Of a stretch of 64,000 bases of DNA, positions 5,971-12,055 are shown piece by piece (within the stretch, counting starts at the first letter, position 1; the number at the start of each line of letters is the position of its first letter). Source of the DNA: an uncultured Prevotella sp. (GTDB lineage: Bacteria; Bacteroidota; Bacteroidia; Bacteroidales; Bacteroidaceae); contig CAJODK010000012.1 of assembly GCA_905233245.1 (NCBI GenBank), forward strand, positions 16,359 through 80,358, read 5' to 3'. Made by a program: the position numbers and the translations under genes. A model generated the notes under the pieces. That model was not told where the DNA came from and made no database searches. It saw nothing but the letters and a program-made list of their open reading frames with translations.

Positions 5971-6064
5971 GAATAAAAATAGATGTCCCGACCACCGCTG
6001 TGGCCAGGACATCCGATACATAAATTTGCTTTGTTATTTATAAGCAATTATACAATCCTCATTG
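5971..6064. repeat. Repeat B copy 1 (94 bp), contains terminator hairpin
   Basis: About 93/94 identical to 7119-7212; hairpin gatgtcc...ggacatc. Confidence 0.95.
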
Positions 6065-6082
6065 GAGGAGGATGTATAATTT

Positions 6083-6949
6083 TTAGAATGCATCCTCGAA
6101 GTCGACGTGAAAGCTAACATCAGTAGTAAGTACTCTCGTACCTCCTGATCTTAATTCGGGAGTATTAATACGAATATCACAGTCAACAACGCAGATAGGA
6201 CCATCTACAGAGCGAATAACATTCTCATCGTGCATGTCGCTTAGGTATATGTCAGGAGTAGCGTATGTCCAGTTCCTTGGATTCTTCAATTCAAATCCCA
6301 TATGCTCCATGTACTCCTCGATTTCATCGTCTGATAGATGTGAACCTCTTATATACGGTTGTTCTACAAGGATCTTGAATTCTCCATCCTTATTACGTCC
6401 AAATCCCAGTACAGAAAGTCCCGTTTCAGGGAAATATGTATTATGCAGTGCTATTCTGTCGAGTGCCAGAATAGGAGTAATGAAATAATCAAGTCCGATG
6501 CTTTTCACCAGTGTTGCGCCATGGTCAAATACCACAGCCTCTCCCCCCTCAGCTATTCCTTCTCCTAGAGTTTGTTGCAGGACATCATCTATAGAGTCCG
6601 TCCAGCATCCTATGCTCTTAGCCCACAGTTCTATGCAGTTTTCTTGCTTCTTGCCCTGTTGGCACTCTCTTTCGAAATCGCTGACATTCTTCGGAGAGTC
6701 TGTATCTGCTCTATCTTCTGCTCCCGCGAGTATGGATGCAATGACATTCGTCTCACCGCCCGTTGCGCAGCCATGCTGTTCTCTCGGTGAAAATCGTTTA
6801 TATACAAGCCTTCCGCTGATAAATTGCTCTGCATAATAATTAAGTCTTTTAAGTCCTTCGGGTGTGAAGCCATCTTCTATTATTTTCCGTATGGATACCC
6901 AAAAGTCCGAGTTTGTCATTATATTGATATTGTTTGATTCCACCTGCAA
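6083..6949 (-). CDS. Kinase-like protein (resembles the kinase domain of polyvalent proteins), ends in SFHVDFEDAF
   Basis: EGGEAVVFDHGATLVKSI...LSDMHDENVIRSVDGPICVVDCDIRIN resembles kinase catalytic/metal motifs; likely start at MTNSDFW. Confidence 0.5.
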   Translation of the reverse strand: MQVESNNINIMTNSDFWVSIRKIIEDGFTPEGLKRLNYYAEQFISGRLVYKRFSPREQHGCATGGETNVIASILAGAEDRADTDSPKNVSDFERECQQGKKQENCIELWAKSIGCWTDSIDDVLQQTLGEGIAEGGEAVVFDHGATLVKSIGLDYFITPILALDRIALHNTYFPETGLSVLGFGRNKDGEFKILVEQPYIRGSHLSDDEIEEYMEHMGFELKNPRNWTYATPDIYLSDMHDENVIRSVDGPICVVDCDIRINTPELRSGGTRVLTTDVSFHVDFEDAF

Positions 6950-7118: not shown

Positions 7119-7212
7119 GAATAAAAATAGATGTCCCGACCACCGCTGTGGTCAGGACATCCGATACATAAATTTGCTTTGTTATTTATAAGCAATTATA
7201 CAATCCTCATTG
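7119..7212. repeat. Repeat B copy 2 (94 bp) with terminator hairpin
   Basis: Matches 5971-6064. Confidence 0.95.
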
Positions 7213-7226
7213 AAGCATTTTGTATA

Positions 7227-7265
7227 ATATTTAGAAGTCATCTTCGAACTCGGCATCTTGATCTA
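7227..7265 (-). pseudogene. Relic of an acidic C-terminal tail, (RQI)DQDAEFEDDF*, out of frame with the upstream ORF
   Basis: Minus strand gatcaagatgccgagttcgaagatgacttctaa; no start codon, preceded by an in-frame stop. Confidence 0.55.
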
Positions 7266-7886
7266 TTTGTCTCTAATTTTATCTCTAGCCTTAATTGCAT
7301 TATTCTCACTGCCATTATTAGCGCAGTTGTTCAGGCTTTCTTGTGATTTTATAGCATTCACAATTGAATCCAACTTGGTTCCAATCTCCTGTAGAGGAGT
7401 TTTTAGGTCTTGGGGCGATTGAGATACTCTGTTACTCATAAAGCACGACAGTAATAATACTAAAAACAAGATAATTGGATAAAACATCACAATAGATTTC
7501 GATTTTAAGCAATGTTTCTTTATGGAACAACTGTTATTTCCTTTTGGTATTGATATATCGAATCTGTAGATCAGATCTTTCCACGTATTATCACCATTAT
7601 GATACCTTGTAATAAACTCTTTCTCATGCTTGCGAAACTTGTTCTCGAGTAACAGATAATAGAAGTCTAATGCCCAAAACATGCAGATAGGGATAACAGC
7701 AATCAAAAGATATTCATTTAACTCAACTGAAGCAGCACACAGTGCAATTAGAGCCGTAACAATAGTTAATGTCCAATTTTTACAATTTGAACTGTTGGAT
7801 GCCATTCTGTTTATGGTATCCTGAAGCATCTGCAGATACTGACGAACATCCGTCACTTCATATATTTCTTTTTGTTGCTCACTCAT
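7263..7886 (-). CDS. Membrane protein with TM hairpin plus a third TM; partner of the TIR gene
   Basis: Hydrophobic segments LTIVTALIALCAASVELNEYLLIAVIPICMFWALDFYYLLL and SIVMFYPIILFLVLLLSCFM; starts 4 bp after the TIR gene stop. Confidence 0.7.
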   Translation of the reverse strand: MSEQQKEIYEVTDVRQYLQMLQDTINRMASNSSNCKNWTLTIVTALIALCAASVELNEYLLIAVIPICMFWALDFYYLLLENKFRKHEKEFITRYHNGDNTWKDLIYRFDISIPKGNNSCSIKKHCLKSKSIVMFYPIILFLVLLLSCFMSNRVSQSPQDLKTPLQEIGTKLDSIVNAIKSQESLNNCANNGSENNAIKARDKIRDK

Positions 7887-7890
7887 AAAT

Positions 7891-9039
7891 TTATACTATT
7901 GGTAAGTTATTATCCACTTGACAATATTCACAATCCTTTAGGTATTCTGGTACTTCTAATGTTATAACACCTGGCTTGTAAACTACAACTTTTTTATTAT
8001 GCTCTTTGAAATAATTTACTTCACGCTCAGTATATTGTGAAAGAATAGCATTATCAGTCATCACATAAAGTAATACGTCCGATTGGTCCATACGTAGTTC
8101 CAGTGCAGGCCAAGTATCTTCGTTTTGATTTTTTCGATTCAACATTACACCGTCATTAACCCAATCAATATAAACCACCTTGCCAAGACTATTCAAGTGT
8201 CTTTTAATATTAAGGAGTTCCTTCGCATCAAGAGAACTGTGGGAAAGGAACACATCAAATCTCTGATAGAGCAACTCTTGATTATCATACAGCAGATGAA
8301 GAAGTTCCGTAGGATTTTTCTTAATATCAATTGGCTTTAGCGCAGATTTCTTTCTTTTGCCCTTCCTTTCTCTTGCCAACCAAGGGCGTTCGCCCATGCG
8401 CAATAAAGATTTATAGGCTACCACGCGAAGGTCATAATTCTTGTCACAAGCATTAACTTTTTCCAAGAATGCAACGGTTTCCCTACATTTAAATTGTGCC
8501 GCCTCTATCAAAATAAGGTAACGAGCATTAATGTTGAGCGTATCACGTTTGCGCACATCAAAATAGGTTTTTACCAAAGCATTTATATATGGAGGACAGA
8601 CATCCTGTACATGAACAAGATTTTCTGCATTTTTTTTGCTACGTTCATTCATCTTCCTTGTAGCGTTATTCTTGAGTTCATGCTTGAACGTATTTATTTC
8701 TTCATCTGACAGTGTACGTTTATTCACGCGTTTAATTTTTGCATTTCGCTCCAGGAATTTTTCTGGAGTTGAAAAGGACACTGTTCTAAGATTTTTCTTC
8801 TTTCTTCGTATATAATCGTTCTTACGACTATTGCAATAATAACAGATATCCTCCCATGTGTAAGGGAAATATTCTTTAAATGCTTCAAGGTAATCCTGAA
8901 AGCTAAATCCAACAGGAAGAATATTCACAAGTTTTTTGGATAAGATTGCGAGATGAAACCCTTTTAGTACAATTTTCTCTCTATAATATTGCCTTCGATA
9001 GTAAATTGACATTATATTATTGTTTAAGGAGTTACTCAA
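7891..9039 (-). CDS. TIR-domain protein with N-terminal alpha-helical extension
   Basis: C-terminal RFDVFLSHSSLDAKELLNIKRHLNSLGKVVYIDWVND...DVLLYVMTDNAILSQYTEREVNYFKEHNKKVVVYKPG is TIR-like. Confidence 0.8.
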   Translation of the reverse strand: MSNSLNNNIMSIYYRRQYYREKIVLKGFHLAILSKKLVNILPVGFSFQDYLEAFKEYFPYTWEDICYYCNSRKNDYIRRKKKNLRTVSFSTPEKFLERNAKIKRVNKRTLSDEEINTFKHELKNNATRKMNERSKKNAENLVHVQDVCPPYINALVKTYFDVRKRDTLNINARYLILIEAAQFKCRETVAFLEKVNACDKNYDLRVVAYKSLLRMGERPWLARERKGKRKKSALKPIDIKKNPTELLHLLYDNQELLYQRFDVFLSHSSLDAKELLNIKRHLNSLGKVVYIDWVNDGVMLNRKNQNEDTWPALELRMDQSDVLLYVMTDNAILSQYTEREVNYFKEHNKKVVVYKPGVITLEVPEYLKDCEYCQVDNNLPIV

Positions 9040-11299: not shown

Positions 11300-12055
11300 T
11301 TAATTAGAAAATTTGAAAGAATCGTTTTTGTATATAGGTTGTTCTGTCCGTTCTCCTTTGTGACAAAGACTGTAACACCTATATTCAACACTTAAGATAT
11401 TTTTTTCATCTTTAGTCTTTTTGGCTATTTCGTCAAGCTTCTTTTCTTTTATATTCTGAACAGTTCCTTCATCTGAGGATTCTACTATTTGCAAGAAATA
11501 GCGTTGCGCATTTTCGCCACTTTCTTTTATATTTGTGAGCTTCACAAAGTCTTTTTCATAATCTACTATATCTGGATTCCCTGCCTTAAACTCAATCAAC
11601 GCTACGATTTCCTGATTATCATAGATTACTAAATCTATATTGCCAGACTCGCCATATTTCGTAATGCATGGAACACTAGCATCCAATCCCCATTCATTAC
11701 TGGTGTTTCCTTTGGAGAAAAGGTACTTGTCTTTTGTTGGCGTTTCAACAGAATAGCAAAAACTAGAATCGTTGCATAATTCATTGAATGCCTCCACAAA
11801 GGCAAAGCGAAATTCTTGCTCACTTAAACGTAACTTACCCTTTGCTACAACATTACCTTTTGCATCCTCAATATCTCTGTATCTTGGAACTGTAATCGAT
11901 GTTCGCTCTCCATTATCGAAAGAAAGATTCCCCTTTGCTCTAAAATAAGCACACTGAACCTTCTGAAAAGCTTTTTGGATAAGCCTTTCCATAAGTGCAC
12001 TTATGTCGTTACAACATTCTATCATTTCTTTGCTATGCTTGCGCGCGTATATCAT
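11300..12055 (-). CDS. PD-(D/E)XK nuclease-like hypothetical protein
   Basis: NIDLVIYDNQEIVALIEFKAGNP fits D-(X)n-E-X-K core. Confidence 0.5.
   Translation of the reverse strand: MIYARKHSKEMIECCNDISALMERLIQKAFQKVQCAYFRAKGNLSFDNGERTSITVPRYRDIEDAKGNVVAKGKLRLSEQEFRFAFVEAFNELCNDSSFCYSVETPTKDKYLFSKGNTSNEWGLDASVPCITKYGESGNIDLVIYDNQEIVALIEFKAGNPDIVDYEKDFVKLTNIKESGENAQRYFLQIVESSDEGTVQNIKEKKLDEIAKKTKDEKNILSVEYRCYSLCHKGERTEQPIYKNDSFKFSN

Follow-up and report, generated by a model that had tools for sequence, protein, structure and literature searches.

A mobile TIR and membrane-protein gene pair in an uncultured Prevotella as a candidate Thoeris-like abortive-infection module

Two adjoining genes in the genome of an uncultured Prevotella sp., one encoding a TIR-domain protein and the other a small membrane protein, raise the question of whether they work together in anti-phage defence and, if they do, whether they belong to a system that already carries a name. 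The window analyzed here is the whole 64,000-nucleotide stretch of contig CAJODK010000012.1, and the host assembly, belonging to Bacteroidales, comprises 1.93 Mb in 49 contigs and is 82% complete. According to the list of open reading frames (ORFs), the pair consists of two intact ORFs on the minus strand at 7263-9012 of the window. These and the neighboring features are, in window coordinates:

6083-6949, minus strand: Kinase-PolyVal gene (Pfam PF18762, E = 4e-43)
7119-7260, minus strand: remaining 3′ end of a gene for a small peptide with an acidic tail (...DQDAEFEDDF and stop), with its 3′ region, immediately behind the membrane-protein gene
7263-7886, minus strand: membrane-protein gene, 207 aa, PDC-M50A / phrog_19896, ORF intact
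7887-7890, minus strand: gap of 4 bp between the two genes
7891-9012, minus strand: TIR gene, 373 aa from the ATG; the ORF begins upstream, with a TTG at 9039
11300-12055, minus strand: gene for a 251-aa protein, GC 34%, with a sub-threshold Pfam match to HSDR_N (PD-(D/E)XK; 0.0047)

The locus and its two proteins

The 4-bp gap is consistent with one transcript for both genes, and because close homologues of the TIR protein begin with MSIYYRK or MSIFYRK, its translation very probably starts at the ATG at 9012, the TTG at 9039 remaining unused. An initial annotation of this DNA, made from the letters alone, had described the spacing, the 207-aa second protein and the AT-rich composition of the pair; the ORF coordinates match the first two, and the GC content is 35-36% over the pair, which lies in an accessory patch of the genome, vs. 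48-55% in much of the window. Its kinase-like neighbor proved to be the Kinase-PolyVal gene by Pfam, whereas its PD-(D/E)XK-like label is supported in part, since the HSDR_N match below threshold is the sole one; the gene for this 251-aa protein is possibly another one concerned with defence or mobility.

On the minus strand, 5971-6130 and 7119-7260 of the window share a direct repeat of 134 bp (92%), which contains the 3′ tail (..DAEFEDDF and stop) and 3′ region from a family of small peptide genes (MKKEYIEPSVKAVEIKL...). Three further copies are present in the genome (C10, C14, and C20; 79-82%), each behind an intact peptide gene, and the remnant at 7119-7260 is a probable edge of an acquired segment. 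Given that the TIR-membrane protein pair and the Kinase-PolyVal gene each directly precede such a tail, the peptide-gene tails suggest an insertion hotspot for cargo genes. The Kinase-PolyVal protein itself ends in ..VDFEDAF and stop, which may reflect fusion with that acidic peptide tail.

The TIR protein is composed of a helical N-terminal domain (about 1-225) and a ThsB-type TIR domain (about 250-370). Its Pfam matches are weak and mutually consistent (TIR_2, E = 4e-6; ThsB_TIR, 0.007), while a PADLOC check, as suggested in the initial annotation, returned the ThsB models PDLC00425 (3e-60) and PDLC00426 (6e-51), which span nearly the full protein, helical N-terminus included. The long helical N-terminus read from the letters is a folded helical domain in the AF2 model (pLDDT 88). 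The nearest solved relative is Bacillus cereus ThsB (BcThsB, 8btn), matched by phmmer at 6e-13 with the single protein and at 7e-33 with the family profile, and 8btn is also among the top structural matches of the AF2 model. The conserved motifs are SHS, DW and Glu331, counted from the ATG at 9012, and in 18 TIR relatives the invariant columns include S257-H258, D283-W284, R293, R307, and Glu331, which occupies the catalytic position. The catalytic Glu had been expected in a TEREV segment, and it is the second Glu of this segment, E331 of 373, that is the invariant family Glu. Some caution is due because a Trp four residues ahead of it, common among the relatives, is Tyr in the window protein and Cys in L037/L042. 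In the host genome, as far as the 82% complete assembly extends, this protein is the sole TIR_2 match.

The membrane protein carries three transmembrane (TM) segments by hydropathy (about 38-56, 58-80, and 130-152), in agreement with the AF2 helices (3-52, 54-96, 130-154, and a long C-terminal helix; pLDDT 86) and with the TM hairpin plus third segment that had been proposed. An N-terminal helix continues into TM1 and is followed by TM2, a hydrophilic loop and TM3. The family is about 140 aa in length, and the window copy of 207 aa has an extra C-terminal helix that is not seen in the aligned relatives. All four PADLOC PDC-M50A models match the protein (best 7.3e-28), PDC-M50A is matched by 67 of 67 aligned family members, and the protein is a member of phrog_19896. 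Across the 67 relatives no significant Pfam family was found, Pfam recognized no known ligand-binding domain in the protein, and the PDB gave no relative by profile and nothing below E = 0.5 by fold. DUF2270 was rejected as a distant relative (weak E in 14 of the 67; hhalign probability of 16% over 39 columns), and the “8xMP” octameric family, for which a literature search found no paper, gave weak matches in 4 of the 67 (best E = 0.007).

Invariant or near-invariant residues cluster at the boundary of the N-terminal helix and TM1 (Q22, R27, M28, A29, N31, S32, K36, and W38) and at the end of TM2 (F70, D74, L78, E81, and, in part, R85). Since the genome-contig scan was seeded with RMAxNS..K, invariance within this pattern is inflated and partly a matter of ascertainment; D74, E81, and Q22 lie outside it. 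Among relatives from a whole-profile search, RM and NS are mostly kept and D74 is replaced by Asn in two. With helix 3-52 and helix 54-96 arranged as a hairpin, the polar residues of TM1 and TM2 should, judging from the helix boundaries, be opposite each other at its cytoplasmic mouth.

Conservation, layouts and mobility of the pair

The surveys of the pairing were queried with the membrane protein alone. In 301 genomes of the bacterial family, 11 matches were obtained, one of them spurious (L028, weak and stop-interrupted), and all ten genuine matches adjoin a TIR or DUF1863 (ThsB_TIR) gene. When 85,462 species genomes plus viral contigs were scanned, 89 loci emerged, which partly overlap the family-level set and contain near-duplicates, so that the counts are not fully independent; their hosts belong to Bacteroidota, Firmicutes, Cyanobacteria, Nitrospinota, Patescibacteria, DPANN, Bathyarchaeota, and ANME, and include the Asgard archaeon MK-D1. 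A TIR-like ORF lies no more than 3 kb from the membrane-protein gene in 74 of these 89 loci, within 200 nt and on the same strand in 68, and at least two TIRs are found within 1.5 kb in 35, the surroundings holding 116 TIR ORFs at <3 kb vs. 2 at 3-6 kb. The two genes occur together far more often than expected by chance, and conservation of the pair across genomes, on which the initial annotation had made its reading depend, is borne out at both scales.

A phylum-wide HMM search without the seed motif found the membrane-protein family in 21 of 398 genomes, patchily distributed, with a TIR detected by HMM near 13 of the 18 strong matches. Four of the other five (L136, L139, L141, and L148) have a nearby downstream TIR of divergent or CAP12 type, the assignment for L139 and L141 resting on their resemblance to L136. 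In L136, L139, and L141 the membrane-protein gene is followed by a gene whose ~440-aa product carries a divergent TIR at its N-terminus (PF13676 in L136, E = 3e-5); the L136 product has no PADLOC match and is a TIR subtype outside the PADLOC library. Over 19 pairs, distances among membrane proteins correlate with those among TIRs (r = 0.74, reached in 0 of 5000 permutations), host relatedness being left uncontrolled. At least five TIR subfamilies partner the one membrane-protein family, namely those with a helical N-terminus (370-400 aa), those of ~165-180 aa, DUF1863 (~222 aa), the MYRGFN type (~270 aa), and the CAP12 type, as would be expected if the sensors were exchangeable and the effector shared. 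No TIR-membrane protein fusion was found among the loci examined.

Within the membrane-protein family there is also a subclade that stands amid housekeeping genes without a recognized adjoining TIR (L078, L091, L102, L105, L106, L111, and L112, the last near a contig end); here either a TIR acts in trans or the protein has a different role. Five of these genes (L078, L102, L105, L106, and L111) tell against the mechanism proposed below. Two other membrane-protein genes are followed by genes without Pfam or PADLOC match (L051, 752-2371, 540 aa; L063, 6512-7432, 307 aa). The 307-aa protein opens with a TIR-like VFISYRS motif, and both are possibly unrecognized sensor types.

The closest relatives of the window TIR, at 53-57% identity (L002/L042, L003/L037, and L036), have the membrane-protein gene at the front and a further TIR-like gene close by (DUF1863 or a short TIR), whereas in the window the TIR gene comes first and no other TIR is present. 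With this order, a membrane protein merely 34-36% identical to those of the same relatives, and its extra helix, the window pair has the look of a module that was reshuffled and reduced. Thus the two-gene operon of the initial annotation stands as a conserved unit, but as one of several layouts, since most relatives place the membrane protein first and often have a second, DUF1863-type TIR. A genome of the same genus (G700, locus L155) carries a three-gene version with DUF1863, membrane protein and a MYRGFN-type TIR, and the module is absent from most genomes of the genus. The module is mobile, its carriers including a Vibrio tectivirus-like prophage, IMG/VR contigs and conjugative plasmids of E. 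coli, Klebsiella, and Campylobacter; among annotated records the pair is found on this prophage and on plasmids of the same three genera, Terribacillus and Parabacteroides, and one Levilactobacillus plasmid has the membrane-protein gene without an annotated TIR. Related pairs reside on both plasmids and chromosomes of E. coli, one version occurring in 23 of 5,426 complete genomes.

A proposed mechanism and its rivals

On balance, we lean towards a Thoeris-like abortive-infection module, in which the TIR protein would make an NAD-derived signal and the membrane protein would be the effector. The helical N-terminal domain would probably detect a phage component or event, and the TIR domain, via its conserved Glu, would turn NAD+ into an ADP-ribose-type signal. 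In response, the three-TM protein, produced from the same transcript, would assemble in the inner membrane and open or rupture it, and the cell would die or stall ahead of phage release. The putative receiving site is the band of conserved polar residues where the TM1-TM2 hairpin opens towards the cytoplasm, with Q22, R27, N31, S32, and K36 opposite D74, E81, and R85. Since one effector family serves many TIR families and the window TIR is of ThsB type, a diffusible NAD-derived signal fits best, and by analogy it may lead to membrane damage as in type II Thoeris, in which binding of His-ADPR causes the TM-macro ThsA to disrupt the membrane (PMC12948488; PMC12847820). To take the membrane protein as the effector, as originally supposed, is the most economical reading. 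More tentatively, this membrane protein of ~140 residues may be receptor and pore in one, gated by the signal through the polar band without a separate ligand-binding domain, and at least five families of TIR sensors would draw on it in hosts ranging from bacteria to DPANN and Asgard archaea.

The chief alternative is direct contact, in which the TIR itself would kill by an NADase activity that exhausts NAD+, with the membrane protein as its anchor, sensor or brake. Such a role would suit a membrane protein in which no ligand-binding domain is recognizable and whose gene adjoins or overlaps that of the TIR, and there is precedent in SpbK and SPARTA, bacterial TIRs that act directly as NADases (PMC12847820). 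We nevertheless think it unlikely, because a conserved interface is hard to reconcile with at least five divergent TIR families for one membrane-protein family, the closest solved TIR is a ThsB, and fusions are lacking among the loci examined. A cellular role outside defence, as a membrane stress or signaling pair, would account for the subclade that sits amid housekeeping genes in several lineages with no recognized TIR adjoining; yet that role is improbable for a family that occurs patchily, in no more than 21 of 398 genomes searched across the phylum, is missing from most genomes of the same genus and is present on prophages and plasmids.

There is, by contrast with these two, close to an even chance that the pair belongs to a Thoeris type that has already been classified (III, V, VI or later), with the membrane protein as its published effector, possibly in Yirmiya et al. 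(2025). PADLOC names the TIRs ThsB and the membrane protein PDC-M50A, and PMC13232231 refers to a preprint by Yirmiya et al. (December 2025), on the systematic discovery of TIR signaling systems, for type VI Thoeris, which signals through 2′cADPR. Against this, accessible papers do not describe the effectors of types III, V, and VI, and our search of the literature on PDC-M50 and on these three types found no description of the TIR-membrane protein pair, nor any paper on anti-phage activity of PDC-M50. Twelve E. coli TIR systems are attributed to Wang et al. (2024) where PMC12847820 cites it, and the preprint may already include or name the module. This classification is compatible with the signal-gated effector that we favor; it affects novelty only, and the two probabilities overlap.

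If the signaling module is real, TIR immunity would have a widespread membrane-killing branch, with an effector lacking a known nucleotide-binding fold, and how the TIR signal is read would become a directly testable question. The related pairs of E. coli would make testing easy in a laboratory strain, and TIR subfamilies that share one effector would help to map which TIRs make which signal.

Relation to known systems

Small membrane proteins with a TM hairpin also occur in conflict operons as the SLATT two-TM effectors. The window protein resembles them in its size, hairpin and setting, but membership was rejected, no Pfam SLATT match being obtained at E ≤ 1; a remote relation may still exist. 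SARM1 and TIR-1 (ARM/HEAT-SAM-TIR) similarly have an alpha-helical domain N-terminal to the TIR; C. elegans TIR-1 matches the window TIR weakly (E = 1e-3, rmsd 23 Å), and homology of the helical domain is not claimed on such a poor structural match.

With Thoeris the general feature of a ThsB-type TIR bearing the Glu is shared (PADLOC 3e-60, 8btn 7e-33, Glu331), and a Vibrio prophage record names the partner TIR ThsB. The TIR is likewise of ThsB type in type I, with its SIR2-SLOG ThsA, and in type IV, with a caspase-like effector, but neither the ORFs nor Pfam place a SIR2, SLOG or caspase gene beside the window pair. Type II (a ThsB TIR with the TM-macro ThsA, responding to His-ADPR) comes nearer in combining a TIR with a membrane effector and no SIR2, yet in the window there is no macro domain on the membrane protein or in its neighborhood. 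Moreover, the ThsA proteins of types I and II have a known ligand-binding domain and the window membrane protein has none. The lack of a SIR2-SLOG, TM-macro or caspase effector alongside the pair rules out Thoeris types I, II, and IV, in keeping with the initial annotation, which had seen no macro or SLOG ThsA-like partner and judged the pair non-canonical. In the same bacterial family, two distant TIR relatives (L008 and L009) do stand beside caspase-like genes, the layout of type IV.

That annotation had also held that its proposal would fall if both genes belonged to a named system, and in this respect the outcome is divided. PADLOC lists PDC-M50, composed of PDC-M50A and PDC-M50B, in which the membrane protein is matched as PDC-M50A and the neighbor is TIR-like, and it calls the window TIR ThsB. 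However, PDC-M50 is only a candidate system, and PDC-M50B is a 162-aa TIR, whereas the window TIR fits ThsB models of proteins of ~350-390 aa and is not matched by the PDC-M50B model at E ≤ 1. Relatives with a PDC-M50B-like TIR do exist (L126, 1e-12). On its model matches, the window pair is best described as a variant of the PADLOC candidate PDC-M50 in which another TIR takes the place of PDC-M50B.
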